A stretch of DNA of 64,000 nucleotides. It comes from Symbiodinium sp. CCMP2592 (taxonomy: Eukaryota; Sar; Dinophyceae; Suessiales; Symbiodiniaceae). The stretch is taken from assembly GCA_905221615.1 (NCBI GenBank), contig CAJNDT010000127.1, positions 189,501 to 253,500 of the forward strand. Direction: 5' to 3'. Position 1 is the stretch's first letter; each line of letters opens with the position of its first letter. Positions 23,341 through 59,549 of this stretch are shown here, in pieces. The position numbers were made by a program, and so were the translations under genes. A model generated the notes under the pieces. That model had not been told where the DNA came from. It worked only from the letters and a program-made list of their open reading frames with translations, and did no database searches.

Positions 23341-23360
23341 TCACTGCCTCAAAGCTCACT

Positions 23361-23847
23361 TTTTCTGAGCATAGCAGTGTTTCGTTGCCTGAACCTCGCA
23401 AAGCACTGGAAACTTGAACATAGCAGTGTTTCGTGGCCTAAACCTTACAAAACACTGTAATGCTCAAAAAACTCCAAAATTTCCAACCCTTAAACTCACG
23501 AAACACTGTAATGCTCAAAAAAATCCAAAAATTCCAAAATTCTGTCATCTATGGCCAGGCCGGGGGCAGATTCCTTAAAAGTTTGGAATTTTTTTGAGCA
23601 TAGCGGTGTTTCGTGCGTTTCAAGGCTTGCAAAAGTTGATCTTTTTTGAGCATTACAGTGTTTCGTGGCTTTAACATCACAAAACACTGTAATGCTCAAA
23701 AAAATCAGCTTTTCACTGCTTCAAAGCTCACTTTTTTTTGAGCATAGCAGTGTTTCGTGGCCTGAATCTCACAAAACACGGTAATGCTCAAAAAAAGTCA
23801 ACTTTTCACTGCCTCAAAGCTCACGAAACACTGTAATGCTCAAAAAA
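23361..23847. repeat. Array of ten alternately oriented 26-bp motifs
   Basis: The motif is TTTTTTGAGCAT, two variable bases, then CAGTGTTTCGTG. Forward copies start near 23361, 23416, 23590, 23642 and 23732. Reverse-complement copies start near 23447, 23497, 23678, 23770 and 23822. Neighbouring forward and reverse copies are 10-20 bp apart, so several pairs could fold into hairpins. Between pairs run AT-rich words such as CCAAAATTCC. Two more copies are at 37031-37098. Confidence 0.85.
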
Positions 23848-23879
23848 TTCCGAAATTTTATAGAATTTGCCACCGGGCT

Positions 23880-24110
23880 GGCCATACATGATGCAGGGCT
23901 GCCACCCCCCTCCCCCTCCCCCCCCCCCATGGTATCCCCCCCTTCCCTCCCCTGTGGTGTCCCCGCCCCGCTGTGGTGTGGGCACAGGTGCTTTTCCCCC
24001 CCCGCTGCCCCTGCGGTATCCCCCCCCTCCCCTCCCCTGTGGTGTGGGGTCCCCCCGCCCCCCCCCTGTGGTGTGGGCCCTGTGGTGCGGTATCCGGTGG
24101 TGCTCTGCAT
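23880..24110. repeat. Poly-C/CCCCT low-complexity block (P repeat, copy 1)
   Basis: It starts CATACATGATGCAGGGCTGCCACC, then long C runs and CTCCCCTGTGGTGTGG words. The same start and C-rich text recur at 31166-31270, directly after the right 184-bp repeat. Open frames here encode only Pro/Gly/Val runs and are not genes. Confidence 0.85.
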
Positions 24111-24600: not shown

Positions 24601-24894
24601 ATTTATCTTGTGTCACACTGGCAATCTTCCTGACAATTGGGCACAGAGATCGGGCCTGTCAGGGACGCGGTCCTGTTCACAGTTGCCTGGGTTCGGACGG
24701 AAGGTGTCCACTGTCACAAGGATCGGGCGTGTTTGGAACGCGATCCTCGTGACGGTTACCGGTTGTGGTGCCTTCATGTGGGAGACGTGCACGGTGAGGG
24801 GCGCCGTCCTCGTGACAGTTGATGGTTTTGGAGCCTTTACGTGGGATCACAGAAAAGGCCTCCGGGGGGGGGGGGATACCATGGGGGTGGGGGG
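24600..24894. other. Non-coding stretch ending in G-rich tract
   Basis: No gene. GGGGGGGGGGGATACCATGG and further G runs at about 24864-24894 form an inverted counterpart to the C-rich CCATGGTATCCCC at 23926-23943. The 184-bp repeat begins straight after the final G run. Confidence 0.5.
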
Positions 24895-25078
24895 TGAAAC
24901 ACTGAATGTTACACATCCAGGTGCCTGTCTGTTTCACGTATCACTTGCATGTATCCATGCCTGTTGCTCAAGGTTCTAGTGCAGTGGACTACAGCTGTGC
25001 GCCTGTAGCAAAAGAGACACCTGAGTGCCTGTGTTCCTGTACGCCTAGCGAGGGGATACACGTCCAGGTTACATCTCA
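24895..25078 (+). repeat. Left 184-bp direct repeat (LTR-like)
   Basis: It starts TGAAACACTG and ends ACATCTCA, and matches 30949-31132 without any difference that I could find. It contains no long gene; the short frames through it are identical in both copies. Confidence 0.85.
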
Positions 25079-25081
25079 ACG

Positions 25082-25093
25082 TGGTAGCGGAGC
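25082..25093 (+). promoter_or_regulatory. Primer-binding-site-like sequence
   Basis: TGGTAGCGGAGC lies 3 bp inside the left repeat. It begins with TGG, complementary to tRNA CCA ends, and differs at two places from TGGTATCAGAGC, the initiator-Met primer site of many plant LTR elements. The identical 12-mer is at 37200-37211 upstream of Copia-2. Confidence 0.5.
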
Positions 25094-25272
25094 TCCCGGG
25101 AAACGGGAAGCTTCACACTTGTGGAGGTACCCGTTCGGTACTCTCTACACAGGTTGTGCTTCATGAAGAGTTGTTGGTCTCTTTTTAAATTTGTGCCTGC
25201 ATTGCTCAAATCAGCTGGTTCAAAACTCAAGTGAGAAAGTAGCCCACAACTTCCTCTTCTTCTGTTACCAGC

Positions 25273-28200
25273 ATGGCTGCGGCAGGACCCTCGATGGACA
25301 CTGGACGCTCCTCTCATGAGGAGGCACCATTCCAGGTCTACTGGACACCGACAACGGGATGCAACTTCAAGATTGACGTCCGCACTGGTGTCCCCGACCT
25401 GTCCTTGTACCAACAGAGCGCGTCCTGGGCAAACCGTCGTGTACTCCGAACAGTTGGAGATGGCGACGGTAATGCCAGCTATCCTACAAGGGATCGTCGA
25501 GCCTATCCTGCGAGTGCTCCGGTGGCCTCCCTCAGGATCATCCCAGAAGGTGTTCCACGGTTTTTCCGTCAGCAGGACACCACGGCGTACTTCCCTCAGG
25601 GGGAGATGGCCGCGGTGAACATTCTGGAAGGACAGTTGGCCTTTCTGTCACACGTCCTGCTGTACGAGGAAACTCACCCTGGGACCCATGTGTTGCAGCG
25701 GCACCTCACGTGGAAGTTCGACTTCCTCCGGTGCTTTCTTGGATGTCTGACCGGCGACGAGCTCACCGAGCTCGATCGTGAAATCTTCAACATTCACCAG
25801 ATGCGCCACAATCACGGTGGATGGGCGGTGAAGTCATCCAAACAGCTGTCATCATTGACCAGGCACGACACGAGGGTCACGCCGGGTCGATACATGGAGA
25901 TCCCGTTGGAGACGATGATGAAGCACCCCATCAGGCCTTTCGAGTGGGAGCCCAAGAAGTTCTTCGCCTTCTTGATGGCGAACTCGAAGGGTCGCTTCAA
26001 CATCTGGGTGGCCCCGGTGGCTCTGCAGTTCGAGCGGTTCTTTGACTTCGACTTCTATGTCGGGGTCTCCGCCGTCCAGGGTCACTCACGGATGCCCGAG
26101 CGGGTCTCTGATGTTGCTCTCGGGGAAAGGCTCACTTTGGAGCGATGCCGCCAGCTTGGAACGATTTTCCACGCCTCGGATAACTCCAACTACGAGAGCA
26201 TCCGGGAAAACGGCTTAAAGCTGGAGGCGACGAAGGCGGCGTGGCAGCGGCACAGGAAGGCCATCCACCTCGTTTATGCGGGTGGAGTGGTTTCTCCTGG
26301 GGCTGGGACCGTCATTAAGTACGGTACCTACGTCTTCTACGCCAAGCTCGATTACGAGTGCTACCTGAGTCACGGCCACAATCTGTTTCTTACAGACAAC
26401 GGCGTGGTGCTCTCGTACCAGGACATTCCGGCGATGTATCTCACACATCACTACCGTCCTCCTCACGAGCAAGATCCGGGTGGCATTCGCCACGAGAGGA
26501 AGCAGCAAAGCGCAGGGGTAGGCTCTTCTCAGGAAGAGGGAACCTCAGCGTCTGCTTCCGCATCTGCTTCCGGAGGCCCTCCACAGGGAGGGGTACCGGG
26601 TAGCAGCTCGGATCCAATGCCTTCGAAGCCAGCTCCCAAGAAGCGGCCAAAGACATCTCAGGATGCAGGCCAAGCGTCACCGGGAAGCTTCTCTCAGGAG
26701 AAGGTACCCACATTGGACGCGGCAGCTCTCCAGAAGCTTATTCGTGACAATGAGCTTAAGGCAGAGCGGGAGCGGCAAGCCACAGCCTCCGAAGGAGACA
26801 CCAAGTATGCGTATCAGTCTGGGGACACCGTCCACGGCAAGATTGATGCGCATAAGTCCCAGCAGCAGGAGGAGCTCAACGAGGTTCTCCGCAAGGCCAG
26901 GACGAATCCATGGCATCTCTTCGCGCACGGCAAGTTGCACATGGTGGACTCCTCTGGCCAGCCGATGCTTAGCACCTATGGCGATGCCCTCGTTCAGGTC
27001 ACCCCCTGGCACACTTTGACTACTTCTATGAGAGAGTCTTTGGGTGGTGAATACGATTGGGCATCGTGGTTGCAGCATCCTCTTTCGGGGTACTCCCTGC
27101 ACTTCTTCCTCAAGGCCTTCGAGATGGGGAAGTTGCAGGGGAACTACCTCGTGGAGCTGGACAAGAAACCGAAGGTTTACTCCAACGGTTACACGTCACC
27201 TTGGATGAACTTTAAGCGTCATCCTGGCGGTCTTGCCCAGATGCTGGACGATGTCTCCGTTGCCGCGTCGAACGAATTCAGGCCCAACTTGGGTAACATT
27301 GGATTCGATCGCCCTCGGGACAATGACTCTCGTGCAAAGATGCCAAGGACAGAGGATCCCGACTACTCTCGCAAGCTCGCCGCACACAAGGCTTTCCTCA
27401 GGGAAAGGTATGTGTATGAAGAGGTTGGCTATGTGCGAGAGGATTTCCAGATGCTCGTCCGCGTCATCAATGAGGCTTATGGAGTGGACTTCTTCTCCTA
27501 CATCCAGCGCCACGCCGGTGATCTGGAGGTTCGCCGTAAATACACGGTGCGAACCCCTGAGGGCTATTGTCTCTATGACAGTACCCTGAAGCAGCCGTTC
27601 AACGGCAGCTACCTCCTGGCGGTTCTGGAGAAAGTCTTCGCTGAGTCTGACCAGCGCGATTTCAAGTCGGCTTTCGCCCGCAAGGCAAAAGCTGATTTAG
27701 TGGCGTACGAAGACTTGAAGGCGAAGAAGGAGTCTGAGCTGAATGAGCTCCTCACCCGACCATATGACGACATTATGATTGAGGAGTTCATCGAGCGACT
27801 CCCATGTCCACAGATCGAGGAGATCGAAGAGCCTCCCGCGGCTACTCAGATGGATACCTCCGAACCGTCGTCTGGATCCACGGACTTGCCACAGGGCAAG
27901 AAGGTTGATCCGGTTAAGACCGAGCCGACCGATGTGCCAATGGAGACTGATGCTCCAGGAAGCTCTCCACAGGGAGAGGTACCTGGGGCTACTGTCGAGT
28001 CAATGGAGACCGAAGCCACGGAAAGCTCTCCACAGGGAGAGGCATCCGAGGTGAAGGTCGAACCTGATGTGCACATGGGTCAGGAAGGAGGTAAGTCCGA
28101 GAACATTGAAATGGCTGAGGAAGGCTCACCACAGGGTGAGGAATCCATGCCAGACATTTCTCCCGAGAAGGATGATGAAAGTGAACTTCACGATCAAGGC

Positions 28201-28950
28201 ATCTGGGGGAAATGCAAGACTGTTCCGGATCCTGAGTACTACCAGGCCGCGAAGGATGCAGAGGACCAGAATGAGAACGCGTTCGACAAAATGGGCAAGG
28301 CAAAGGAAAAGATCGAGCTCGTTGATCTCGAAGAGTTCAAACATTTCCTTAATCAGCTCACCGAAATCGAACGACAAAGCCCTATGCGGATGCTCTGCAA
28401 GCAGCTGCATGGATATGGCTATTCAGGCTTGTATCATACAGGACTTCGTGATCCTGATTACGAGCCCGTTCTCGCCTACAAGGTGCAGCATATGAGTTGG
28501 AGGGTAAATGTTCCGAACCACAAGGGACAGAAATACTCTCTCTCTATGGTGGATCTATTCGACCAACTCAACAAGATGGATCCCATCTATGAGCGTCGTC
28601 CCGACAAAAAGGACGTTGTTTTTCGTTCTGGGGACGTTCGTAGCACCTTGGACGACAAGCTCATGGGCAAGGCCTCTGACATCCGAGAATCAGCACTGGA
28701 TGTTATGGAAGCACTTCTTGATAAGCTGAAGTCCCTGGATGCAAGCGGCAATCCGGCAACTCGAGAAGAACTTTTGAATGCTATGCTTCACTACTTCTTG
28801 AGCACCGGAGTCGATGAAGAGGAGATCGGGGACCTCTCTCTTGAGAAGACGCCGAATCCTTATATTCATCGTTTTGGTCTGGCAGAGGACTCCAATGTCC
28901 CTATCTTCACCAGCAAGACCAAGTATGCCGCCTCAATCTCGGCAACATGA
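25273..28950 (+). CDS. KptA/Tpt1-like RNA 2'-phosphotransferase-fold protein (N-terminal part of KptA-EEP fusion)
   Basis: Starts at ATG 25273 (1225 residues to a TGA). Residues ~262-395 match the KptA/Tpt1 C-terminal half: VSAVQGHS (267-272; family R-A-x-Q-G-H-S), IFHASDNSNYESIRENGL (family H-G-T...I...G-L), AIHLVYAGG (family H-x-H-L), then GHNLFLTDNGVVLS..DIP. KptA/Tpt1 removes an RNA 2'-phosphate using NAD+. The Arg usual just before A-x-Q-G-H-S is Ser here, and the later Arg near the fold end is Lys, so activity is doubtful. A low-complexity linker repeats SSPQGE-type blocks (~900-990). Residues ~500-880 are unrecognised. The frame continues past the TGA. Confidence 0.7.
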   Translation: MAAAGPSMDTGRSSHEEAPFQVYWTPTTGCNFKIDVRTGVPDLSLYQQSASWANRRVLRTVGDGDGNASYPTRDRRAYPASAPVASLRIIPEGVPRFFRQQDTTAYFPQGEMAAVNILEGQLAFLSHVLLYEETHPGTHVLQRHLTWKFDFLRCFLGCLTGDELTELDREIFNIHQMRHNHGGWAVKSSKQLSSLTRHDTRVTPGRYMEIPLETMMKHPIRPFEWEPKKFFAFLMANSKGRFNIWVAPVALQFERFFDFDFYVGVSAVQGHSRMPERVSDVALGERLTLERCRQLGTIFHASDNSNYESIRENGLKLEATKAAWQRHRKAIHLVYAGGVVSPGAGTVIKYGTYVFYAKLDYECYLSHGHNLFLTDNGVVLSYQDIPAMYLTHHYRPPHEQDPGGIRHERKQQSAGVGSSQEEGTSASASASASGGPPQGGVPGSSSDPMPSKPAPKKRPKTSQDAGQASPGSFSQEKVPTLDAAALQKLIRDNELKAERERQATASEGDTKYAYQSGDTVHGKIDAHKSQQQEELNEVLRKARTNPWHLFAHGKLHMVDSSGQPMLSTYGDALVQVTPWHTLTTSMRESLGGEYDWASWLQHPLSGYSLHFFLKAFEMGKLQGNYLVELDKKPKVYSNGYTSPWMNFKRHPGGLAQMLDDVSVAASNEFRPNLGNIGFDRPRDNDSRAKMPRTEDPDYSRKLAAHKAFLRERYVYEEVGYVREDFQMLVRVINEAYGVDFFSYIQRHAGDLEVRRKYTVRTPEGYCLYDSTLKQPFNGSYLLAVLEKVFAESDQRDFKSAFARKAKADLVAYEDLKAKKESELNELLTRPYDDIMIEEFIERLPCPQIEEIEEPPAATQMDTSEPSSGSTDLPQGKKVDPVKTEPTDVPMETDAPGSSPQGEVPGATVESMETEATESSPQGEASEVKVEPDVHMGQEGGKSENIEMAEEGSPQGEESMPDISPEKDDESELHDQGIWGKCKTVPDPEYYQAAKDAEDQNENAFDKMGKAKEKIELVDLEEFKHFLNQLTEIERQSPMRMLCKQLHGYGYSGLYHTGLRDPDYEPVLAYKVQHMSWRVNVPNHKGQKYSLSMVDLFDQLNKMDPIYERRPDKKDVVFRSGDVRSTLDDKLMGKASDIRESALDVMEALLDKLKSLDASGNPATREELLNAMLHYFLSTGVDEEEIGDLSLEKTPNPYIHRFGLAEDSNVPIFTSKTKYAASISAT
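28948..28950 (+). other. Single in-frame TGA between KptA-like and EEP parts
   Basis: The frame opened at 25273 is broken only here before 30216. Sequence just upstream (TKYAASISA) looks like the first strand of the EEP domain and sequence just downstream (ALIKSIAQSKTHLFMLCEA) like its first helix and catalytic Glu, so the stop falls inside a domain. A nonsense mutation or stop readthrough would both explain it. Confidence 0.85.
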
Positions 28951-30216
28951 GCCTTGATAAAATCGATTGCACAGTCGAAGACGCATTTGTTCATGCTCTG
29001 CGAAGCGGCTAAGATCGATGACTCCGAAGAGGCCTTCCTCAAGTCACGCGGTTGGCAATTCCTTCGTAACGAGTCCAAGGACCTGATGGTGGGAAGTCGT
29101 ACAAATGGTGTCGGATCTTCGATCACCCGTCTTGCCGGCTCCACTCTCAGTGGATATGCCCACGAGTCCCTTCCAATAACCTATATGGTCGCGGAAATCG
29201 TGTATGGCATGACGTTACCGACCGGTCTCCAGGGCAGTCGTGGTGATGTTCCAGATGAGTCACTGACCAAGGTCTTGGAGCGAGCTGGATCCGACCGGCT
29301 CAGAGTTTGTGTCTTCCACCTCCACAATGACGCGGCGGCAGACAAGGTGGCGTTGGCTCATGAAGTGTTGGGCAACATGTTCATCGACTGCTTGCACTAC
29401 CAAGTCGACCTCATCGGTGGCGACGCCAACATGGCCCTCTACCGGGCCACCGGCAGAAAGCAGGAGTCGATGGATATTCGTGGCGGGATGTACCAAAGCC
29501 TTCTCGACTACTTCTTGGAGGCATGGTCAGAAAGCCCAAAGTGCCCACACTTCTGTTCGCCTCGTGCGAGACATGTGTCAGCAAACGCCATGTGGCTTCT
29601 GAAACAGTATGAGGACACGCTGGGAATGCCATACAAGGAAGCTAAGCAACCAGACTGGAATACTTTTCCTGGTTTGGATCCTGTTATGGCTACAGTCATG
29701 GAATGGGGACACAGCATGTCGGACGATCAATGGGCGGAGTTTCCGTCTTCAAAGACTGAGTTCGACATCCATGTCTCTGAGTGGCTGTTAAACTCCACCA
29801 GCGCCGCGTACCTTCTCAACGATCGGGACTATGACGCTCACACTCCGCTCCTCATCGAGGTTCACGCGAACCAGTACTCTGGAGGCAGGATGAGAGCGCT
29901 CAACCGCAATCCCGACACCGTGAAGGAAGCCGCGGACAGAAGAAAAGAGAGACAGAAGCTGAACAAGGCGCGTGGTTCTGGTTCTACTGGTCCTGCAGCC
30001 GCACCACAGGGAGCAAGCTCTTCTCAGGAAGAGGCAGCTTCTGGTGCTAAAGCTTCTGGTTCTCAACGTCCTCCAGAACCCGCACAACCTCCTGGTGGCA
30101 AGGAAGGCGGCAAAGGAGGCAAGTCCTCCAAAGGAAAAGGCAAGGACGCCGACAAGGGCAAGTCCAAGGGCAAGACCAAGGACAAGTCCAAGGGCAAGTC
30201 CAAGGGCAAAAACTGA
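28951..30216 (+). CDS. EEP-family nuclease-like domain with KGK-rich tail
   Basis: Same frame as 25273-28950. The endonuclease/exonuclease/phosphatase motifs appear in order: HLFMLCEA (Glu, codon 29002-29004), LRVCVFHLHND, VDLIGGDANMA (Asp-Asn, 29421) and DYDAHTPLLIEV (Asp/His, ~29830). A Pro/Ser/Gln linker and a basic tail of KGK, KDK and KSK units (30102-30213) follow, like the nucleocapsid tails of the Copia Gag in this window. The family cuts DNA or RNA phosphodiesters, and LINEs use relatives to nick targets. No ATG lies at the start of the segment, so separate translation is unlikely. Confidence 0.7.
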   Translation, partial: ALIKSIAQSKTHLFMLCEAAKIDDSEEAFLKSRGWQFLRNESKDLMVGSRTNGVGSSITRLAGSTLSGYAHESLPITYMVAEIVYGMTLPTGLQGSRGDVPDESLTKVLERAGSDRLRVCVFHLHNDAAADKVALAHEVLGNMFIDCLHYQVDLIGGDANMALYRATGRKQESMDIRGGMYQSLLDYFLEAWSESPKCPHFCSPRARHVSANAMWLLKQYEDTLGMPYKEAKQPDWNTFPGLDPVMATVMEWGHSMSDDQWAEFPSSKTEFDIHVSEWLLNSTSAAYLLNDRDYDAHTPLLIEVHANQYSGGRMRALNRNPDTVKEAADRRKERQKLNKARGSGSTGPAAAPQGASSSQEEAASGAKASGSQRPPEPAQPPGGKEGGKGGKSSKGKGKDADKGKSKGKTKDKSKGKSKGKN

Positions 30217-30948
30217 CTAGGTTCAGATGAGGGCGAGGACGCAGACGTTGACGTTCGTGACGAAGACGTTGGTCCTGGCCCAGCATCCTTTGGTGATAGA
30301 CCGTGGTTCCCATTTCGCCTGCAGCTTTTTCACTGGCATTTGGAGAGATGGTACTACCCTCACCACCATTTGCCTCATCCTGATGACAGTCCTCGTACTC
30401 GTCGTAGGGTGGAGCAGTACAACCAGAGGGTGATGAACCAAGGTCCGATGGAAGAAGTGGAGTGAGTGTTTCACGGAATGCTTCTTTCATAAGAAGGTAT
30501 CCAGTTTGAGCATTCGCCATTTCATAGGAAGATGCTTTTCTCATGAAGAGGTACTTCCTTAAAGACCTTGTCAGAAAGAAGATACTTATCTCAGGATAAG
30601 ATACTTCTCATGCCCTTATATATTTGCCGTGTCGCAAGATGTCATGCTGGCATCAAGTGGAGCTAAGCTCTACAATCTTTTATGTGACAGTAAGCTTTCC
30701 GCCTGGAGAGGAAACTGAACACAAGTGGGCAACTTTCAAGCAAAAGTTTTCAGTTGAAGATCCGTTTGCGTTTTCGTGCGTGTTCTGCTCTTTTCATTGA
30801 AGCTGTCTTCAGGTGAGAGATGTATAGATTCTCTTCAAGTCGCAGATGTAGCTCAATACTCCGCTAATTCGACCGAGAGCAATAACAGGCTAGTTGAATG
30901 CCGACTCCACGGCCATGCAGCTCTACGTGTTTTAAATTTGTGCCTGGT
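30217..30948. other. 3' non-coding part of the LTR-like element
   Basis: No gene. From about 30470 to 30610 there are several imperfect AAGA.G.TACTT/CTCATGA words. TTTTAAATTTGTGCCTG at 30930-30946, just before the right repeat, also occurs at 25182-25198 shortly after the left repeat. Confidence 0.45.
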
Positions 30949-31132
30949 TGAAACACTGAATGTTACACATCCAGGTGCCTGTCTGTTTCACGTATCACTT
31001 GCATGTATCCATGCCTGTTGCTCAAGGTTCTAGTGCAGTGGACTACAGCTGTGCGCCTGTAGCAAAAGAGACACCTGAGTGCCTGTGTTCCTGTACGCCT
31101 AGCGAGGGGATACACGTCCAGGTTACATCTCA
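30949..31132 (+). repeat. Right 184-bp direct repeat (LTR-like)
   Basis: The copy of 24895-25078. It is followed at once by a run of 11 G and then the P repeat. Confidence 0.85.
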
Positions 31133-31280
31133 GGGGGGGGGGGTGGGGGCCTGGGACCCGAGACCATACATGATGCAGGGCTGCCACCCCCCTCCCCCTC
31201 CCCCCCCCCACATGGTTTCCCCCCCTTCCCTCCCCTATGTGGTGTGGGTTCCCCCCTGCCCCTCCCCCCCTGTGGTTGCG
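31133..31280. repeat. G-run and C-rich P repeat, copy 2
   Basis: GGGGGGGGGGG, then CATACATGATGCAGGGCTGCCACC and CCCCT-rich text matching 23884-23960. Confidence 0.85.
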
Positions 31281-37199: not shown

Positions 37200-37211
37200 T
37201 GGTAGCGGAGC
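37200..37211 (+). promoter_or_regulatory. Primer-binding-site-like sequence of Copia-2
   Basis: TGGTAGCGGAGC, identical to 25082-25093, directly after TTTACA, which could be the CA end of a 5' LTR. I found no second copy of the preceding bases downstream of the element, so the LTR itself is unproven. Confidence 0.45.
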
Positions 37212-37340
37212 ACGTCGGTCCACGGGACTGAGTGCTCGGTGGCCAGGACCCTAGCCACCTGTGTTGTGGCCAGGACCCAAGCCACGTGTGTGTGTGTGTG
37301 TAGAGTAGTGCCCAAGTGTGTGACGGCCCGCTTGCCATAG

Positions 37341-37919
37341 TTTCGACTGTGCCTGGCGGCTGTGCGCTCCTCCTCAGTGTCTACTACAACCGCTGCGGCC
37401 ACGGCGACCTTGGCGGGATTGGAAAGCTTCAAGGGAGCCTTGAGCGAGTTTGCGGTTGAACAGGTGTTGGAGAACCATCGTGTGGAGCGTCCCGACACCA
37501 TTAGTCAACGTGCCTGGAGCAGAAAGCAGACCAGGGAGATCGAACGAGCCCATACGCGTATTCAACTGTGTGAAACCTTGGATCAGTTGGTTAACTACGC
37601 AGCGACTCTCCTTTCTCCGGACAACCTAGAGGCATTCCTGTTTCTGAATTTGTCGGAGAGAGACCTTGAAGAGCCGTTGTTCCTCCCGAACCACCTGGTT
37701 GAGTCTACGGTACACCCGGTAGAAGACCACCCTCCGTTGCCAGCTAGCCTAGACGCCTTGGTGTTGGAGTACGAAACCCAGCAGCACGACAAGCATCTAG
37801 AAGAACTCCTCAAGAACGACTTCGGCATCATCCTTGGTGGTGGTACACGCGAAAGTAAGAAGAGAACCTTTGAGGGACCTCTTAAGGCTGCACCGGCTGC
37901 TGTCATTGACCTGGATTAG
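37341..37919 (+). CDS. Met-free ORF just upstream of Copia-2 Gag-Pol
   Basis: Open from after a TAG at 37338-37340 to a TAG at 37917-37919, with no ATG anywhere. From ~37378 it reads as a normal acidic helical protein (ESFKGALSEFAVEQVLENH, TLDQLVNYAATLLSPDN, EELLKNDFGIILGGG). CTCCTCCTCAG at 37367-37377 could be a splice acceptor, so this may be the last exon of a spliced leader ORF or be translated from a non-AUG codon. The stop is 5 bp before the Gag-Pol ATG, in another frame, a layout that would permit reinitiation. Confidence 0.5.
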   Translation, partial: FRLCLAAVRSSSVSTTTAAATATLAGLESFKGALSEFAVEQVLENHRVERPDTISQRAWSRKQTREIERAHTRIQLCETLDQLVNYAATLLSPDNLEAFLFLNLSERDLEEPLFLPNHLVESTVHPVEDHPPLPASLDALVLEYETQQHDKHLEELLKNDFGIILGGGTRESKKRTFEGPLKAAPAAVIDLD

Positions 37920-37924
37920 GCGTG

Positions 37925-40900
37925 ATGGCGACTTCAGGATCTGCGGACCCTGGACCTCAACTACCACAACCTCCCCAAGGGAGCAATCCGTTTCAGGGAG
38001 CACCGGTGAGCCCTACGAGTCCTAGTCAGCAACCTTTCGAGCGAGTTCTAGAGATGCTGACAGCGTCGGTTCTGCAGAGTGCCGAGAATTCTCAGCAGAT
38101 GAAAGAGACTCTTGAAGCCTTGACCAGACGTACTTTGAATGAGAGTGGATCGACTCAGTCTGGTATGTGGTCTCGTGTGATCAGCAAGCCAGATGTCTTC
38201 AAGCCAAAGGACAGGGAGGAAGAGCTCTCCCAGTTTTCAGAGTGGTCGTGGCAATTCAAACAGTATGTGCGCGTGATCTGTCCAGGGATGCATAAGTTGC
38301 TTGAGAGCGTGGAGTCTGATCTTGATGACAGTAACGTGCACTCGGAGATGTCTGCAGAAACAGTGGATTTGTCAAAGCAGCTGTACGCCTTGCTTGCTAG
38401 TTTGTTGAGAGAGCGTCCTGTGCAAATCTTGAAGGCCATCCCAGATGGCAATGGATGCGAAGTGTGGCGGACCTTGGTTCGCACCCTGGCGCCTAGCAAC
38501 AAAGCTCGGTCGTTGGCGCTGCTTGGAGCAATTTCTCAGTTTCCAGCAATGACAAATTCCAATTACCATGAGCAGATTTTGAAGTTGGAAGAGTTGTGCC
38601 GTAAGTACAGCCAGTCGTCCGGCAAAGAAGTGGATGTGGAGTTGAAAGCAGCTATTCTTTTGAGATCGCTGCCGGCAACTTTGCGTACACATGTGAGCGT
38701 GAACTGCAGTGAAAGTGCTACGTATGAAGAGCTTCGAGAAGTAATTCTTCGTTATGAGCGAGCAACCCAGAAGTGGACCACCCAGTTGGTTTCAGGTACA
38801 ACCCTACCTCCTGCTGGTGATGGTGCTGTGCCTATGGATGTTGACATGGTGAAAGGAAAGGTTGGTAAAGACAAAGGCAAAGGTGGGTGGAAGCATTACA
38901 ACAACAACCCCAAAGGGAAGGACAACAAAGGCAAAGGAAAAGACTACTCCCAGTACTACCAGAAGGGCAAGCATGGAAAAGGCAAAGGTGGTTACAAAGG
39001 AAAGGACCATAAAGGGAAAGGCAAAGGCTATAACCACGACAACTCGAAGGGCAAGAGCAAAGGCAAGACCAACGTTCCCTACAACAATTGCAAGATTTGT
39101 GGTAAGCCAGGTCATTGGAGCAATGAGTGTTGGATGAAGAAAGTGAACCAAGTGAACAACAACCCTGGAACCCCAAATGTGCCTCAACCACCTGCGGCTC
39201 CTGGAGGATCGACGAGTACCACTGCGACTACAGCCACGGTGAAGCGCGTCTTCAACTTGGCAGAAGACACGGACGCAGTTCAGTTTCCGGTTGCAGGGGA
39301 TTTGGTTGGTGGCTTTGAAGAATCGTGGGATGATGAAGAGTGGTCTGAGTGGTGGTGCTATCATGTCACCGCTTCGGAGTGCGAGTACTATGACATGAGC
39401 ACGGAAGACAGCTCTGAAGAAAACTGGACGTACGATGACACAGCAGTTTCCGTGTTCGACATGACCATGTCTGATGCCCTTCCAGGTGATGAAGATTGGG
39501 TCCAATGCGATTGGGCCAAGACCTACGTGCAGATGGTACAACAGGGACCATCTGAAGGCTGGAACAGTGAAGGGATCAAGGTTGAAGTGGTTCTTGATTC
39601 AGGCGCTGATGTTAGTGTGATGCCAGAGCAGTGGTTGCAGATGGATGTGGGGCAGAATGCACCGGGTGAGCGCGTTCTCATGAGGGATGCACAAGGTCGT
39701 GAGATGCCGAATCTCGGCACTCGTAATGTGTCGTTAGATCTTGGCCAAGCAGTCCTTCATGAGCGCTTTCATGCATCATCAGTGGCGACCCCTTTGCTGA
39801 GCCTGGGTCGACTGTTGAGGAAAGGATGGAGTTTGAACCATCGCAACAACATGTTGTGCTTGTGCTTCGAGGATGTGGCAGTACCTGTGAGTTTTCGGAG
39901 AAATTCATTGGTGGTGGAAGCTACAGTGCACAATGTGGAAGCAAGTGACATGAGCCCAATCATTGAAGAAGTTGTCGAAGAACCCAGCTCTCCACTAGAA
40001 GTACGGCCATTGCTAGAAGGGCGACGCCACTATGCTACGTTTGATTTCAACCCTGATGCTCTCTCCACATCTGAGGCTGGTGAGCTCGATCCACGTGGTC
40101 GACGGTGGCTATTTTTGCCAACGGGAGACCCGGTTTGCCTCTCTGTGGGTTTGAACTTTGTTGACCCTAGTGCTATGATGAACACTGCGCTTTGGAAGTT
40201 TCGGACTACAGTCGTGAAGATTGCCGAGCGTTGGGAGGTTTTGGAGTTACACCAGGATTTGACCTCAATGCCAACCATGATTGGTGCTCTGTCAGCGCTG
40301 GATGATTCTCTTCCTGGAGTGATGTATGAGAGCCTGACCATGACGGTGATGCACCGAACAATCGTGGAGCCCGAGAAGTTTGGGTTTCATGTGAAGCCCG
40401 AGGCACCAAACCCTTTGCTGGATGAACCTCTGCCTCAGGTACCTCCGGAACCAATACGAGCTGATGAAGGGATGCCGGATGGTGCCAACGACTCCAATGC
40501 GGAGGATGAGCAGCCTGGCGCGCAACCTGTGTTGCCTGGGGTTCAGCTAGAGAAGTCTATTCCAGATGAGATTGACGTTGAAGGCAAGAGGTTGACTGCG
40601 GAGTCCCCAGCGGCTGAGTTGAAGTTGGCGTGCCGTGCGTTGGGTATAGGTGCTACGGGGTCCAAGAATGTCCTGTACAAGCGGTTGGTGAAACACGTGT
40701 GGCGTAGGAAGATGGAAGATGACTTAGCTCTGTTTGAAGCTGCGAAACTACCAGAACGCAATCCTCGCTCGTCTCCAGTTCCTACAGAACCATCTCCTGA
40801 AGAAGTTGCCAAACATCGGCTAACACACGTACCTTACCAACCATGGTGCCCGTTGTGCGTGGCGACAAGAGGAAGAAGGGATGCTCATCGAGGTGATGAG

Positions 40901-43900
40901 GCTCACCGCTCTGCTGGCGGTTGGCCAGTCCTGTGCATGGACCTCATGTATGCCTCTCTGGAAGGTTCAGTATGCGAGTTCATGAAGCAAGCCCCAACGA
41001 GCAAAGAGAAGAAGTTGACTGTGTTGGTGTGCGTAGATCGGGATACTGGGATGATTCATTCAGTGCCTCTTCCTGGAAAGGATACTACAGCTTTACAACA
41101 TGCTGCCAAAGAAGTTCTTGGGTTTCTGTCCTACCTTGGTAGGACTGAAGTGGAGATCAGGGGCGACAATGAACCACCGATGGTAGCCCTGTGCGATAAG
41201 GTCGTGGAAGCTCGAAACAAAGCCGGTTTGTCAACCCGCAAGACTCCTTCTCAACCCTATGAACACCAGACCAATGGAGCAGCTGAGCAAGCAGTCTTGA
41301 GCATGCGGGACATTGGCAGCACTCTCCTACAGCAGGTTGAGCAGAGTGGATTTGCCCCCAGTTTGAACCCCGAGTTGATCCCGTGGGCCTATGTGCACGC
41401 ATCGACTTTGCATAACTGCTTTTCAGTGTCTGCGGGAACCACACCTTATGAGCGCGCCTTTCAGGTGAAGTACAATGGACGGCTGGCGATGTGGGGCGAG
41501 ACGATGCTGTTTGCTATTTCCGAGCCCCATCGACGTAAAGGCCGGCCGAAGTTTGCGAAGGGCGTGTTCTTGGGTAAAACCATGTTGAATGACCTCAACA
41601 TTTGTGGCACAGCGTTGGGAGTATATTTGTCGTCAACAGTCAAGCGTCTTCCAGAAGCACAGCAATGGGACAAAGTGTTACTCAAAGAAGTTCAAGGTAA
41701 GCCTTGGAGGTACGGTTTGTCATCTATGGGGATGAAGATAGTACCTGGATTACGTGAACGCAAGCCGCGTCCAGAGCCCATGGCCGAACTACCTGTGCCT
41801 CTGCATCCATTACCTCCTCGTGGTGGATCAAGCCCAAGAGAGGAAGCTGTGTCTGACCCCACGTCAGAACCTGCGTCGCCTGACGCAGAGTCGGCTTCAG
41901 AGTCTAGCAGTGAACACCCAGGAGGGGATGCCAGAGGAGCCAAGCGAGATCGTGAGCCAGGAGGGGATGACGATGATTCGTCTCCTCAAAGCTTCCCTTC
42001 AGATCTGTTGAGTCCAACTGCTGAGCCAGCTCCGATGGTTGTTGAAGAACGTGGGGAAAAGCGAGATGTCCCAGAGTCGTCTGGGAGTGACCAACCGGTC
42101 AAGAAAGTTCGAGCTGTACGAGTTGGTGATGTGGACTACTTCGTCGCGGATGAGGAGATGGAGGACTGGTGGCAAGGCTTGGAGTTTGATGCCCAGTACT
42201 ATGATGATGATTGGATGGACTTCACACCAGAGACGGATCCAGAGGTGTTCTGGGAAGATCAAGGAGAAGAGGAAGGACCTCCTGTCCTCTCTGCAGACCA
42301 GCTGGAGAAAGTGGAAGCCACATCGAGGCTGGACGAGAAGTCCAGACTCATTGACATGGGTGTGTTGGAGAAGGTGGAGATTGACCCTCCAGCGGACAAG
42401 ACCTTGCAGTGCCGGTATGTGTATGACTGGCGGTTTAGGAAGCAGCACTGGTTGCGTCGCGCGCGGCTAGTGTGCAAGCAGCTGAAAGCATGGAGTCCGT
42501 TCAGGCAGGATACCTATGCTCCCTCAACATGTCCCTCGATGCTGCGTCTTCTACCTCACATGTTTGTGAGCACTCCAGGCTGGGTCTTGAGATCGTTCGA
42601 TGTGTCGGATGCTTTCTTGATGGTGAAGCAGCGTGAAGAGTTGTACATCAGGTTGGACAATGAAGTTTACCGTGTCTGGAAATGTTTGCCGGGCCAACAA
42701 CTTGCTCCTGTGTATTGGCATGATGAACTGAGTGGAGATCTTCAGACTTGTGGCCTTACCGGCAACGTTGCATGCCCAGTTGTGTATGGTGGCAAAGATC
42801 AAGCCGCTACGGTCCATGTCGATGATGGCCTACTTGGAGGGTTCGAGGATCAGGTTGACCAGACGGTTGGCGTGCTGAAAGAAAAGTATAAGCTCGAGTG
42901 CAGTCCTCCGCTGAAGGAAGTTGGTGATCAGTTGAGGTTTCTCAAACGTACGCTGGAGGTAGTGCCAGAAGGACTGCGGATAGTGATCGATCCAAAGTAT
43001 GTGGAGAAAATCCTCCAAGTCCTTGGGATTTCCAAACCTCGCTCCCGCAAGGTACCTTCGACTACAGACTTGACGGCCCTCGATGAGACGGAGAAGCTTG
43101 ATGCTATGTGGACCGGGAGGTACAGAGCAGCTTTAGGATGCTTGTTGTATCTGGCTCCTGATCGACCTGATGCGCAGTACACGATTGGTGTGTTGGCTAG
43201 GGGAATGTCATCGCCTACAGCAAAGCAGTTGTCTCATGTGATGTACCTAGCAGAGTACTTGTACTACACCCGGGACTATAGCTTGGTTTTGCGGTGGAGC
43301 AGCCCAGGGCGATCTTATTTGGACGAAAGCCCACGTGTCAGGCCGAGGCTTGATGATGGCGGAGAACCTGGGCCGCCTGGTGGAACCTTGGAAGCCAAGC
43401 CGAGGTTGCTGGAGGCCGTAAGTGATGCAGACTGGGCAGGAAGTGCTGATAGGAGGTCGGTTACGTCGGGACACATATTCTTGGATGGGAATCTGATGTT
43501 CTCGTACAGTCGACGGCAATCTACGATAGCATTGTCTTCATGCGAGTCGGAACTGATGGCCTCTACCTCTGCAATCGCGGAAGCACTTTTCCTGAAGAAC
43601 CTTTTGACAAGTTTGACCAAGGACGCTGTGGACCTTGCTGCTCGGCTGGACAGCTCGAGTGCGCGCAGCCTTCTTACGAAGGCCGGTGTCTCTCGCATAA
43701 GACACCTCGATGTACGGCTGCTATGGACTCAGAGTTTGGTCCGTGAGAAAGTTTTGTCAGTGCGTCCAGTGGGTACTCTTGTCAACACCAGTGATCTCGG
43801 CACCAAAGTTTTGACCTCAAACAGGGTGAAGTATCTACTGTACCTGTTGGGCATGTACAACACCGACGGCTTGATAACTCCGGGAAAGTTTCCAAAACCA

Positions 43901-44419
43901 GCAGGGTCAGATAAATCGCAGGCAGCTGAAATCCTTAGAGTTCTTACTGCGGCCATAGCCTTGAGTCGAGCTACGGCATCTGATCCCGAGCCGAAGTGCA
44001 ACGTTCCTGCTGAGCCCTACGGTGTGGTCAGCGGGATCCTCACGGTGCTGACTGAACCGTTCTTCTATATGTTCATGCTTGCGGTCTCAGTCGTGGCGAT
44101 CGTTGTGTTTATGGCACCAAAGCGACGATGGAACAGGATTCGATGTGTGGACCCTGATGCTGGTGGTGATGGAGAAGGTGAGAAGGCAGTGCGAGAACCC
44201 TCTCAAGAGCCGAACTACTTCGATGACAGTTGGCTGTTTGCCGCATCTGATGACGACGAGGGCGGTGCTACGGAAGCCTATGTGCAAAGTTTTGTGTATG
44301 AGCCAGAACCAAGAGGGCAGACCCCAGATCTACCTGGACCTTCTACGGGACCTCATGAGCATGTTCGGGAAGGTGAGCATTTGGTCTGCGCTTGGTCTGC
44401 GCCCAATTTTGCCCGGTGA
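37925..44419 (+). CDS. Copia-2 Gag-Pol polyprotein (2164 aa)
   Basis: ATG 37925 is the second of two possible starts. In order: Gag helical domain (~80-270); KGK/KGKD-rich basic region (~305-385); CCHC knuckle CKICGKPGHWSNEC (389-402); aspartic protease VVLDSGADVSVMP (Asp 558); a SAP-like motif (~893-930, AAELKLACRALGIGATGSKNV); integrase zinc motif HRLTH...CPLC; DDE triad Asp 1006, Asp 1081, Glu 1121; RT with FDVSDAF and HVDD (1633-1634); RNase H AVSDADW (Asp 1834) and SSCESELMAS; then a membrane segment (~2048-2066, FFYMFMLAVSVVAIVVFM) before a basic stretch. No stop or frameshift: probably recently active. The last ~14 residues come from the 3' tandem repeat. Confidence 0.92.
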   Translation: MATSGSADPGPQLPQPPQGSNPFQGAPVSPTSPSQQPFERVLEMLTASVLQSAENSQQMKETLEALTRRTLNESGSTQSGMWSRVISKPDVFKPKDREEELSQFSEWSWQFKQYVRVICPGMHKLLESVESDLDDSNVHSEMSAETVDLSKQLYALLASLLRERPVQILKAIPDGNGCEVWRTLVRTLAPSNKARSLALLGAISQFPAMTNSNYHEQILKLEELCRKYSQSSGKEVDVELKAAILLRSLPATLRTHVSVNCSESATYEELREVILRYERATQKWTTQLVSGTTLPPAGDGAVPMDVDMVKGKVGKDKGKGGWKHYNNNPKGKDNKGKGKDYSQYYQKGKHGKGKGGYKGKDHKGKGKGYNHDNSKGKSKGKTNVPYNNCKICGKPGHWSNECWMKKVNQVNNNPGTPNVPQPPAAPGGSTSTTATTATVKRVFNLAEDTDAVQFPVAGDLVGGFEESWDDEEWSEWWCYHVTASECEYYDMSTEDSSEENWTYDDTAVSVFDMTMSDALPGDEDWVQCDWAKTYVQMVQQGPSEGWNSEGIKVEVVLDSGADVSVMPEQWLQMDVGQNAPGERVLMRDAQGREMPNLGTRNVSLDLGQAVLHERFHASSVATPLLSLGRLLRKGWSLNHRNNMLCLCFEDVAVPVSFRRNSLVVEATVHNVEASDMSPIIEEVVEEPSSPLEVRPLLEGRRHYATFDFNPDALSTSEAGELDPRGRRWLFLPTGDPVCLSVGLNFVDPSAMMNTALWKFRTTVVKIAERWEVLELHQDLTSMPTMIGALSALDDSLPGVMYESLTMTVMHRTIVEPEKFGFHVKPEAPNPLLDEPLPQVPPEPIRADEGMPDGANDSNAEDEQPGAQPVLPGVQLEKSIPDEIDVEGKRLTAESPAAELKLACRALGIGATGSKNVLYKRLVKHVWRRKMEDDLALFEAAKLPERNPRSSPVPTEPSPEEVAKHRLTHVPYQPWCPLCVATRGRRDAHRGDEAHRSAGGWPVLCMDLMYASLEGSVCEFMKQAPTSKEKKLTVLVCVDRDTGMIHSVPLPGKDTTALQHAAKEVLGFLSYLGRTEVEIRGDNEPPMVALCDKVVEARNKAGLSTRKTPSQPYEHQTNGAAEQAVLSMRDIGSTLLQQVEQSGFAPSLNPELIPWAYVHASTLHNCFSVSAGTTPYERAFQVKYNGRLAMWGETMLFAISEPHRRKGRPKFAKGVFLGKTMLNDLNICGTALGVYLSSTVKRLPEAQQWDKVLLKEVQGKPWRYGLSSMGMKIVPGLRERKPRPEPMAELPVPLHPLPPRGGSSPREEAVSDPTSEPASPDAESASESSSEHPGGDARGAKRDREPGGDDDDSSPQSFPSDLLSPTAEPAPMVVEERGEKRDVPESSGSDQPVKKVRAVRVGDVDYFVADEEMEDWWQGLEFDAQYYDDDWMDFTPETDPEVFWEDQGEEEGPPVLSADQLEKVEATSRLDEKSRLIDMGVLEKVEIDPPADKTLQCRYVYDWRFRKQHWLRRARLVCKQLKAWSPFRQDTYAPSTCPSMLRLLPHMFVSTPGWVLRSFDVSDAFLMVKQREELYIRLDNEVYRVWKCLPGQQLAPVYWHDELSGDLQTCGLTGNVACPVVYGGKDQAATVHVDDGLLGGFEDQVDQTVGVLKEKYKLECSPPLKEVGDQLRFLKRTLEVVPEGLRIVIDPKYVEKILQVLGISKPRSRKVPSTTDLTALDETEKLDAMWTGRYRAALGCLLYLAPDRPDAQYTIGVLARGMSSPTAKQLSHVMYLAEYLYYTRDYSLVLRWSSPGRSYLDESPRVRPRLDDGGEPGPPGGTLEAKPRLLEAVSDADWAGSADRRSVTSGHIFLDGNLMFSYSRRQSTIALSSCESELMASTSAIAEALFLKNLLTSLTKDAVDLAARLDSSSARSLLTKAGVSRIRHLDVRLLWTQSLVREKVLSVRPVGTLVNTSDLGTKVLTSNRVKYLLYLLGMYNTDGLITPGKFPKPAGSDKSQAAEILRVLTAAIALSRATASDPEPKCNVPAEPYGVVSGILTVLTEPFFYMFMLAVSVVAIVVFMAPKRRWNRIRCVDPDAGGDGEGEKAVREPSQEPNYFDDSWLFAASDDDEGGATEAYVQSFVYEPEPRGQTPDLPGPSTGPHEHVREGEHLVCAWSAPNFAR

Positions 44420-54747: not shown

Positions 54748-56724
54748 CTATTGTCTGTCTGATGGGGGTGGAGGAGCTTGATCATCAGGAGGATCTTGAC
54801 CGTGAATGTCCGTATCGTGCCACTCCCTGATGTGTTTTCGCCATATATCAATGAGCACGTCTTGGATCTGTTTGATCTCTTTAAGCGTGAAAGACATACG
54901 GGTTGTGGGAATGGCGGCATAACGAAAGCATTGAGGGCTGCGCAAAATGCGCTGTCTCAGATGTTGGATTGGAGCCCTTTGAGCGCTGTAACGCTTGCAA
55001 TTCCAGTGAATATGTAAAACTTCGTTGGGCACTTTACATACTGGACAGAGCACAGACTGTTGCTGTCTATGACGACCATCACGTGAAGGACACATGAGGC
55101 CACCCGTCAAGATGTAAATGAGGATTTTGCTTCGCGATCTAGGATCTTTTTCAAAGTGGGGGCCTGGAATGCCGCGATCAAGAAGGAGCTGCAAGCCATC
55201 GGATTGCAGATGTAGATCATGAAGAAGAGCTGTAGCTTTTGTCCTGTCCACCCGCTCAATGCCCTGGAAATCTTGACGTGAGTGAGGAATTTGTCGCAGA
55301 TGGTGTTCACGCCAACGTTCACGGAGATTATGTTCCCAGGAACGATCCTTGTCGGATAATTGTAGAATTTGTTGGATTGCAGGTCTGTAAACGGGGTCCG
55401 AAAACAGTTGCTGGGCACGACGTAGAGGGCCTTTCTGTTGTCCGGGGACAGAATGAAGATTGTTATTGATGTATTGGCGTTGGGGAGCTTTGGAGCAGAA
55501 TCGCTGAAGTGATCGTAGAGCGGCAAAGTTCATGGCAAAAAGCGGTTCCAAAGTGGGCATAACGACTACCGTGTACAGAACCATGGGCGTGAGGCTGTAG
55601 TAGCTGATGCGAAGAAGTGCTCGCGTCATCGAGGCTCGCATGGTCGTAATGCGCGATTGCGGAATATAAAGATCATGAGTACCTTGACCCCATGTTAACC
55701 GATTCATCAATTGTTGTTGTGCGAGAAGTCTGGCGCGCCATCCAAGCGGAAGAAGACTGCAAGCCCGAACTGATGCCAACCAGCCGTCCACGCGTTGTTG
55801 CATGAGTGATGTCCACGACGATGCGGTGCCACAAACAATGCTTCCTCCGACGAGTCGAAATGCTTCTTTGTGATTTGGTATGTCAGGCAGAAGATTATGA
55901 GGATCCCCATATGTGAAGCATTTACCGGGATTGAGCTTACTACCAGAGAGTGTCGAAAAAGTTTGCACGGTTTCGTGCGTGGAGCGCAATCCTGCACGTA
56001 AATGTCGTAAGTCCTCGGCAATAACAGTTGCAGAAATATCGTCCACATAGGCCTTGGGCACAATTTTCGCGCGAGCTTGACCAAAGTGACCGTGTTGTAA
56101 CCGTTCCAACCAGCATGCAATCAGACTGGCTAAAAGGATGTTGCTCAAAGGATCTCCCTGTATGATGCCATTGGATGGAGTATATGCTTCACTGAACGCC
56201 TGTCCAAGTTTGAAGTGCTTTTTGTGGGACTTGTAAAAGCCCCGCAAGCCCTGTATGACCGACAGAGGAGCTCCTCTGTAAGTTAAGGTGTCGATGGCAA
56301 GGTTGGGAAGGATGTGATCGTAGCATTTGGAAAAGTCGTATGATAGTCCAGCGCTACAGTGATCATCTTTTTCGGCAACCTCCAACAAATAACTCACATC
56401 AACTGCTAAATCATCGGCACCTTGCCCTGGACGTAGTGCGTAGACTTCAGGAGGTAGTATACGGAGAATCCACGGCATGATGTGTCGACAGCGAGTGCGA
56501 CTCCATAAGCGGTAAAGTGCGCTTACTACACTTATTGGTCTCATGTCATATGCACTTTCTACCTGTCCTTGAGAGTTCAAATTTTTGGGCAACATTGCCA
56601 CATATCCAACAGTCCAGCTGCGAGGCCAAGTAGCCAGTTTTTCACACATGTTCATAAGCCGTGCCAGGTACTGAAACGCTGTGGGCATGCGTTTCCCAGC
56701 AATCTCAAATCCTGAGGCCGCCAA
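54748..56724 (-). pseudogene. LINE-b reverse transcriptase
   Basis: RMPTAFQYLARLMNMCEKLATW, MLPKN, AYDMRPISVVSALYRLW, GLSYDFSKCYDHILP (motif A), GIIQGDPLSN (motif B), PKAYVDDISATV (motif C, ~56035-56055), GSKLNPGKCF. A CCHC motif CPVC...HIHWNC lies near the C-terminus. The RT itself is uninterrupted. The first ~15 codons listed in this frame are out of phase with the upstream endonuclease frame, so a frameshift near 56700 separates them. Confidence 0.88.
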
Positions 56725-59530: not shown

Positions 59531-59549
59531 AGCCCACTGGAGCTCAGAA
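59531..59549. repeat. LINE-b target-site duplication, other copy
   Basis: Identical to 54081-54099. Confidence 0.85.

Follow-up and report, generated by a model that had tools for sequence, protein, structure and literature searches.

The locus analysed here, on contig CAJNDT010000127.1 of Symbiodinium sp. CCMP2592, raises the question of whether a long terminal repeat (LTR) unit carrying no other cargo than a KptA-EEP fusion is a mobile unit in its own right that lacks reverse transcriptase (RT) and integrase, as had been proposed in a preliminary description. From the analysis of the window, a stretch of 64,000 nucleotides (64 kb), and of its host genome, we find it virtually certain that the unit derives by internal deletion from a Copia-type LTR retrotransposon of about 14.95 kb that is young and present in many copies, and the oddness of the system lies in this longer element and not in a cargo-only unit. 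The outer features described before are all present: in a self-comparison of the window, the two direct repeats with TG...CA termini are identical at 184 of 184 positions, G-runs adjoin both from outside, and the 12-mer TGGTAGCGGAGC, which we take to be the complement of the 3' end of initiator tRNA-Met, marks a likely primer-binding site (PBS) 3 bp inside the left repeat (Table 1). Elsewhere in the window the repeat finds matches of at most 34 bp, and a tRNA scan of the window returned none. What had been read as one 4.9-kb frame proved to be two open reading frames (ORFs) in the same frame, the second spanning 28954-30216, which are parted by a single TGA. Neither ORFs nor Pfam searches reveal an RT or integrase in this copy.

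The parent element is defined by further copies of the repeat, which are abundant in the host genome (1.098 Gb in 5383 contigs). The LTR gave 610 first-look candidates, and the best 40, which were scored, are all 100% identical. Six LTR pairs are spaced by 14.70-15.58 kb, four of them by 14.77 kb, and three such copies were retrieved in overlapping stretches, one of which spans L009/L010. All three show the order LTR, PBS, gag-like ORF, integrase-like ORF, RT, KptA-fold/EEP-like ORF and LTR. In L009/L010, the first ORF contains a KGK tail and, by eye, a protease-like stretch, with nothing found in Pfam, whereas the ORF upstream of the RT, placed as expected for an integrase, matches rve over residues 142-224 with 15.8 bits, below the cut-off of 32.6. 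The RT itself (L009 5134-8877) matches RVT_2 (PF07727), the Copia-type RT, with 60.3 bits against a cut-off of 31.6. Among 28 scored copies, 27 have an unbroken KptA ORF. Besides KptA, the gene model P0015 has counterparts of the gag/protease ORF (48%) and of the integrase ORF (53%), and P0016 matches the RT ORF (79% over 452 amino acids) and KptA (48%), so that gag-pol stands beside KptA in other sources too. Those relatives of the window protein that carry an organism name (P0011, P0014, P0023) all come from Symbiodinium, in keeping with a dinoflagellate host. Viral contigs and GTDB prokaryote genomes were considered as further sources and rejected, since their 8 and 74 pattern-matching stretches contained no relative by tblastn.

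Compared to this parent, the window copy has lost its own gag-pol: its sequence follows that of L009 as far as base 358 and joins it again at 8925, with 8.57 kb missing. When the junction (window 25079-25272) was used as query, only the window itself matched end to end among 40 scored of 482 candidates, the other 39 covering query bases 77-194 only, and the deletion is thus apparently private to this copy. The junction shows no clear microhomology, and splicing was rejected as its origin since the 3' side lacks an AG end. A second, smaller deletion is evident from two anchors that are 52 bp apart in the window, 136 bp in eight of nine other copies and 138 bp in L014. This 84-bp loss has created the in-frame TGA, so that readthrough at this codon (28948) was rejected, and it takes out the first EEP-like motif, leaving the window copy with an incomplete signature. 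With identical LTRs, divergence between them gives no date for either deletion. A distinct non-autonomous element that has evolved to carry KptA-EEP alone and borrows its RT from Copia elements would agree with the lack of RT and integrase in the window copy taken by itself and with the PBS 12-mer, which recurs at 37200 upstream of the ORF of another Copia element. We consider it very improbable, and as a family it is refuted by the gag-pol genes in the three longer copies and in the sources of P0015 and P0016, and by a junction that is contiguous in one of the 40 scored matches, where an amplified derivative of the large retrotransposon derivative (LARD) or terminal-repeat retrotransposon in miniature (TRIM) type would share its deletion form among several copies.

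The sampled copies sit in G-runs, with the sense strand always being the G strand. The sample comprises 29 insertions, made up of 10 LTR pairs, 18 single LTRs and the window, in which all 40 scored LTRs are used; three pairs are 25-39 kb apart, and their joint membership is assumed. At least seven G are found among the first 10 sense-strand bases of 38 of 40 outer flanks and at least seven C in none, against a window background of 0.57%. The exceptions are the left flank of C536, with five G adjoining the LTR, and L042, where an LTR-like fragment precedes the G-run. Target duplications, predicted at 4-6 bp, were recovered in part, as mixed-base 5-bp duplications in two of the 10 LTR pairs (C414 and C32) and as G/C-run-type duplications in five (one of only 4 bp). 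In the window, joining the two flanks gives a 41-nt match to a local, inverted G-run repeat, which is of low complexity and too weak to be accepted as an empty site. Inverted and direct repeats surround the G-run target at 23341-23960 and 31164-31245, with 23882-23960 repeating 31164-31245 at 95%.

The extra ORF of the element is under purifying selection, with relatives down to about 35% identity. The KptA part of the proposed fusion is confirmed by profile and predicted fold, with a match to PF01885 (KptA/Tpt1) above cut-off and a fold match over residues 177-396, below which ADP-ribosyltransferases are ranked. The blocks RH, QGHS and RxAIH, candidates for the essential residues of Tpt1/KptA, are visible in the sequence, as is the KGK tail. 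For the EEP part, the motifs N254, E302, F409-H410, G444-D445-x-N447 and D581-x-D583-S-H585 are invariant in an alignment of the family (A4), the last reading DSH where SDH is usual. Pfam EEP families matched neither the P0020 region nor four whole proteins, AlphaFold2 models this half with a predicted local distance difference test score (pLDDT) of 40 and no supported fold, and its hhalign comparison with the LINE endonuclease of the window was no better than five shuffled controls. Nothing meaningful emerged when PDB sequences were searched, by profile or by sequence, using the window piece, A3, A4 and P0020's KptA piece as queries.

A pyrimidine tract followed by AG immediately precedes the ATG of the KptA ORF, also in the three longer copies, and may act as splice acceptor. 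In the window, as in all nine other copies inspected, the ORF ends with TGA CTA G, UGA-CUA being a leaky stop context. The frame beyond is open for 80-84 codons in nine of these ten sequences, the window included, and over all 90 codons read in the tenth, L057. The conserved context and open extension suggest stop-codon readthrough. Among copies that are otherwise about 99% identical, the extension occurs in two almost unrelated sequence types (window 30217-30465; L010, L012, L014, L055-L060), as if swapped by recombination or subject to unusual selection, and between L012 and L014 the proportions of synonymous and nonsynonymous differences (pS 0.29, pN 0.10) are as coding sequence would show. 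The pair of 16-nt repeats TTTAAATTTGTGCCTG, present in the three longer copies as well, is arranged like the central and 3' plus-strand primers of other elements but is not purine-rich.

The element also carries a family of 34-nt hairpins dispersed over coding and non-coding regions (Table 1), which very probably are selected RNA structures. In each, a 5-6-bp outer stem is separated by a 3x3 internal loop from a 6-bp inner stem, which is closed by a tetraloop; in 13 of 17 the internal loop reads ANG/GNA, and the tetraloops are ACAG (6), TCAG (6) or TCAT (3 of 17). A scan for CTNNNN-4-NNNNAG found 11 perfect hits in the element against three in the other 57.8 kb, while dinucleotide shuffles of the element contained 0.17 on average and at most two (n=200). 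With a wobble or one mismatch allowed, 16 hits fall inside and 14 outside, none of the latter with a loop of ACAG, TCAG or TCAT, and a looser structural scan found 16 inside against nine in the other 57.6 kb. Since the 16 founder hairpins were selected by their inner stem, pairing of this stem and of its wobble bases is partly by construction, whereas the outer stem played no part. At an offset of exactly 3 nt, 66 of 80 outer-stem positions are Watson-Crick paired, and 70 including G-U, compared to means of 30.0 and 40.5 in permutations (0 of 5000 as high) and to 17-25 Watson-Crick pairs at other offsets. In the resulting alignment (A5), 91.1% of cells are paired (inner stem 100%, partly by construction; outer stem 82.3%, not by construction), 10 of 12 pairs show changes on both sides and covariation amounts to 0.785, against 0.228 after shuffling and at most 0.222 after sliding.

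An unfiltered search of both strands of the 64 kb with a model built from the 16 hairpins returned 17 matches with E <= 4e-8, all on the sense strand and inside the element; beyond a doubtful one with E 0.013, likewise inside the element, no match exceeded 13.6 bits. Applied to one longer copy, the model found 27 distinct places (31 rows, four being overlap repeats), 26 of them strong and all on the sense strand. Nine lie upstream of the KptA ORF, and eight of these are new. The eight, together with the hairpin at 26568 (A7), show covariation of 0.618 against 0.239 and 74.1% pairing in the outer stem, in a set that was picked by the model and so leans towards structure; the pair-types measure, one of five, was not above shuffles (188/500). 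Local folding assigns the inner stem a pairing probability of at least 0.77 in 17 of 18 hairpins. Rfam contains no matching family at cut-off, with microRNA families alone matching, in the G-run and far below cut-off.

The hairpins can also be read in the proteins of relatives, for which peptide sequences were used. Hairpin-compatible hexamers exceed all 200 shuffles in six of eight proteins tested, and at 332 unique candidate sites hexamer residues 3 and 5 combine as P-G (54), S-E (33), S-G (6), P-E (3) and A-A (3), while 15 further P and 27 further S sites have other partners. At 93 sites chosen by the inner stem alone, the facing residues of the outer stem are G-P (39), E-S (21), A-A (18), V-T (6), T-V (1) and D-S (1), with seven exceptions. 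Complementarity of the first two codon bases is thus kept at 86 of 93 sites (permuted mean 28, maximum 42) and the outer-stem rule in 62 of 69 distinct 9-mers (permuted mean 18.3, maximum 31). As the peptides come from related sequences, Fisher values for these pairings overstate independence. Homologous sites often retain the rule although the peptide varies, as at that of window 27963 (GSSPQGEVP, ESSPQGEAS, EHSSFEETS, GGSSFEEVP, EGSSLEEVS). In P0025, a relative with 149 member sequences, the linkers repeat GS[MV]DP, fitting a GGATC-NNNN-GATCC palindrome and possibly reflecting another hairpin word used by a distant branch.

As the best explanation of the element, its hairpins and the role of the extra ORF, we propose a mechanism that, as a whole, we regard as moderately probable. 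The extra ORF would be made from its own cis- or trans-spliced mRNA, with partial readthrough at UGA-CUA-G. The protein encoded by it, or Gag, would bind the hairpins along the genomic RNA and thereby mark it for particle assembly and reverse transcription; a function of the hairpins as protein-binding sites is the mechanism we favour, although from sequence patterns its chances appear evenly balanced. KptA would remove 2'-phosphates, or ADP-ribosylate nucleic acid ends, that block RT on a nicked and re-ligated template, a role as template-cleaning enzyme that we hold to be less likely than not. The window copy would have lost gag-pol before or after its insertion and, if before, would have been mobilised in trans by copies with the same LTRs, PBS and hairpins. 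A more far-reaching version, where the whole genomic RNA carries about 25 two-stem hairpins, most of them in frame, that are read by a KptA/EEP-like protein selecting and repairing the RNA prior to reverse transcription, with the EEP-like part directing the orientation-strict insertion into G-runs, appears unlikely.

Several observations weigh against this account. The sample of 40 LTRs and 28 ORFs consists of the top-scoring and hence the youngest and most intact ones, and among the three longer copies retrieved through their LTR pairs just one has an open KptA ORF. Target duplications were not found in three of 10 LTR pairs (C458, C269 and C385), and the sequence ahead of the 3' LTR shows no visible polypurine tract. 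Hairpin 1 has an inner-stem probability of 0.00 and is unfolded in its 200-nt context. Fourteen of 18 inner stems also reach at least 0.67 when the opposite strand is folded, so that the polarity rests on 13 G-U versus five A-C cells and on the one-strand hits of the model. In P0010 and P0020, hairpin-compatible hexamers are not in excess of those in shuffled sequences, and the motif is absent in the P0003 group at sites 28026 and 30018. Finally, the EEP assignment is made from motifs, with support neither from profiles nor from fold.

Other explanations concern the origin of the hairpins. They could be tiny mobile or self-copying palindromes, or be kept palindromic by arm-templated repair, without a function for the element. 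Several are near-copies of one another (families D6, D7, D11 and D12), and quasi-palindrome correction can produce complementarity without selection. We still hold this origin to be improbable, because the window's other elements contain no strong model hit and its seven other ORFs no inner-stem site or compatible peptide, because the hairpins share their loop and internal-loop consensus on one strand with G-U exceeding A-C, and because many homologous places are kept, with joint changes, in relatives at 35-60% identity, hairpin 4 residing in a stretch that aligns to them free of gaps. That the encoded peptides (GSSPQGEVP and the like) were selected as protein linkers, with hairpins as by-product of codon use, would fit the many hairpins located in linkers of low predicted confidence. 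This proposal, to which we assign the lowest probability of all, is largely refuted by the five non-coding hairpins (25102, 30472-30686) and by the outer stem, which pairs as well though not used for picking. Joint amino-acid changes moreover follow base-pairing in the inner (P-G, S-E, A-A) and outer stem (G-P, E-S, A-A, V-T), and synonymous bases are paired in all 11 coding hairpins of the common register, a weak point as inner stems were used for picking and this pairing is partly by construction.

Alternatives to the proposed role of the protein fare differently. KptA-EEP might be an accessory ORF in env position countering a host defence based on NAD+ or on RNA ends, a possibility we rate as rather unlikely yet ahead of the palindromes. 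Its 3' position and splice-acceptor-like tract are reminiscent of accessory and env genes, and the fold matches below Tpt1 are ADP-ribosyltransferases, whereas conservation of the ORF together with the hairpins weakly favours a role in the element's own cycle. It is also doubtful, to about the same degree as the palindrome origin, that the EEP-like domain and not the integrase alone picks G-runs by a one-strand nick, as APE endonucleases do in LINEs: the strict orientation in the sample and the invariant motif order N-E-FH-GDxN-DxDSH in A4 speak for it, and the 5-bp duplications in C414 and C32, which fit an ordinary integrase, and an EEP fold that lacks proof speak against it.

Table 1. Features of the window copy and its flanks (window positions; strand as given).
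Feature	Position	Strand	Remark
Target G-run, left flank	24889..24894	+	GGGGGG abutting 5' LTR
5' LTR, 184 bp	24895..25078	+	identical to 3' LTR, TG...CA ends
PBS-like 12-mer TGGTAGCGGAGC	25082..25093	+	starts 3 bp inside left LTR
Hairpin 1	25102..25135	+	non-coding
gag-pol deletion junction	25154..25155	+	8.57 kb missing
16-nt repeat TTTAAATTTGTGCCTG, central copy	25184..25199	+	between RT and KptA ORFs in longer copies
Pyrimidine tract and AG, splice-acceptor-like	25250..25271	+	immediately 5' of KptA ATG; also in three longer copies
Third ORF of element, first part	25273..28950	+	1225 amino acids, then TGA
Hairpin 2	25299..25332	+	
Hairpin 3	25435..25468	+	
Hairpin 4	25581..25614	+	in stretch aligning gap-free to relatives
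KptA/Tpt1-fold domain	25822..26460	+	residues 184-396; Pfam and fold
Hairpin 5	26514..26547	+	
Hairpin 6	26568..26601	+	found by model, outside its building set
Hairpin 7	26679..26712	+	
Middle region	26719..27822	+	residues 483-850, mostly helical, no Pfam family
Hairpin 8	27383..27416	+	
Hairpin 9	27876..27909	+	
Hairpin 10	27954..27987	+	
Hairpin 11	28017..28050	+	
Hairpin 12	28116..28149	+	
Doubtful hairpin	28824..28857	+	E 0.013
84-bp deletion site	28935..28960	+	relative to other copies
EEP-like motif region	28951..29952	+	GGDxN, DxH; first motif deleted in window copy
Hairpin 13	30009..30042	+	
KGK-rich basic tail	30097..30213	+	
TGA CTA G stop and extension	30214..30465	+	in-frame, 82 codons; likely readthrough product
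Hairpin 14	30472..30505	+	3' non-coding
Hairpin 15	30526..30559	+	3' non-coding
Hairpin 16	30576..30609	+	3' non-coding
Hairpin 17	30686..30719	+	3' non-coding
16-nt repeat TTTAAATTTGTGCCTG, second copy	30931..30946	+	2 bp 5' of 3' LTR, polypurine-tract place
3' LTR, 184 bp	30949..31132	+	identical to 5' LTR
Target G-run, right flank	31133..31143	+	flank starts with G-run

The surroundings of the element contain other repeats. The second Copia element (37200-44419), with the same PBS 12-mer, encodes one ORF of 2165 amino acids (37922-44419) that shows no blastp match to the ORFs of the KptA-bearing element at E 1e-3; no 3' LTR matching its 5' side and no strong hairpin hit were found. On the minus strand at 54748-60455, LINE-like ORFs with, by eye, an APE-endonuclease-like stretch and RT lie beside a Copia-like RT fragment, and self-comparison reveals a tandem array of units of about 93 bp at 1419-2228.

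The element thus combines known and unfamiliar features. With Ty1/copia (Pseudoviridae) it shares the LTRs, a putative PBS just inside the LTR, a candidate integrase ORF upstream of an RVT_2-type RT and a 5-bp duplication (two clear cases), and its extra ORF between RT and 3' LTR recalls copia elements with a 3' env-like ORF such as Sirevirus. It differs from them in an extra ORF of KptA/Tpt1 fold instead of an envelope, in about 25 covarying hairpins, in insertion into G-runs, with one orientation throughout the sample, and in the lack of a visible polypurine tract. Compared to Tpt1/KptA RNA 2'-phosphotransferases (PF01885; PDB 7yw2, 7yw3, 8tfz, 6ede), the fold is alike over residues 177-396, but the full-domain chains matched have 176-206 residues, while the domain is here embedded in a retrotransposon protein of 1.65-1.7 thousand amino acids. 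Dispersed packaging signals of single-stranded RNA viruses similarly consist of many degenerate copies of one stem-loop along the genomic RNA that overlap coding sequence, whereas the present hairpins have two stems and a 3x3 internal loop, reside in an LTR retrotransposon and are known here from sequence. The repeated palindromic elements of Rickettsia also lie in frame within proteins but are longer, sequence-related insertions, unlike these 34-nt structures with changing stems. A literature search found nothing on KptA or Tpt1 in a retrotransposon nor on such hairpins.

The elements form a Copia family of a dinoflagellate that is very young, has many copies and bears a conserved gene of RNA-repair fold in env position. 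Its hairpin code is strong enough to be visible in amino acid sequences of relatives that are about 35% identical, and its target is a G-run entered in a fixed orientation. The family makes testable what use RNA-end repair has to a retrotransposon, whether LTR elements contain dispersed packaging hairpins and how a homopolymer and its strand are chosen. It also illustrates that what looks like a cargo-only element can have arisen from a longer one by a single, private deletion. The nearest known case found is that of the LINE and DIRS retrotransposons of Symbiodinium, which are reported to carry a DNA methyltransferase (DNMT) that the Copia elements lack (PMC5890265); the term 'phosphotransferase' occurs zero times in the text of that paper. 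Like the element described here, those are dinoflagellate retrotransposons of high copy number with a conserved captured enzyme; unlike it, they belong to the LINE and DIRS classes and carry a DNA methyltransferase (PMC5890265) in place of a KptA fold.

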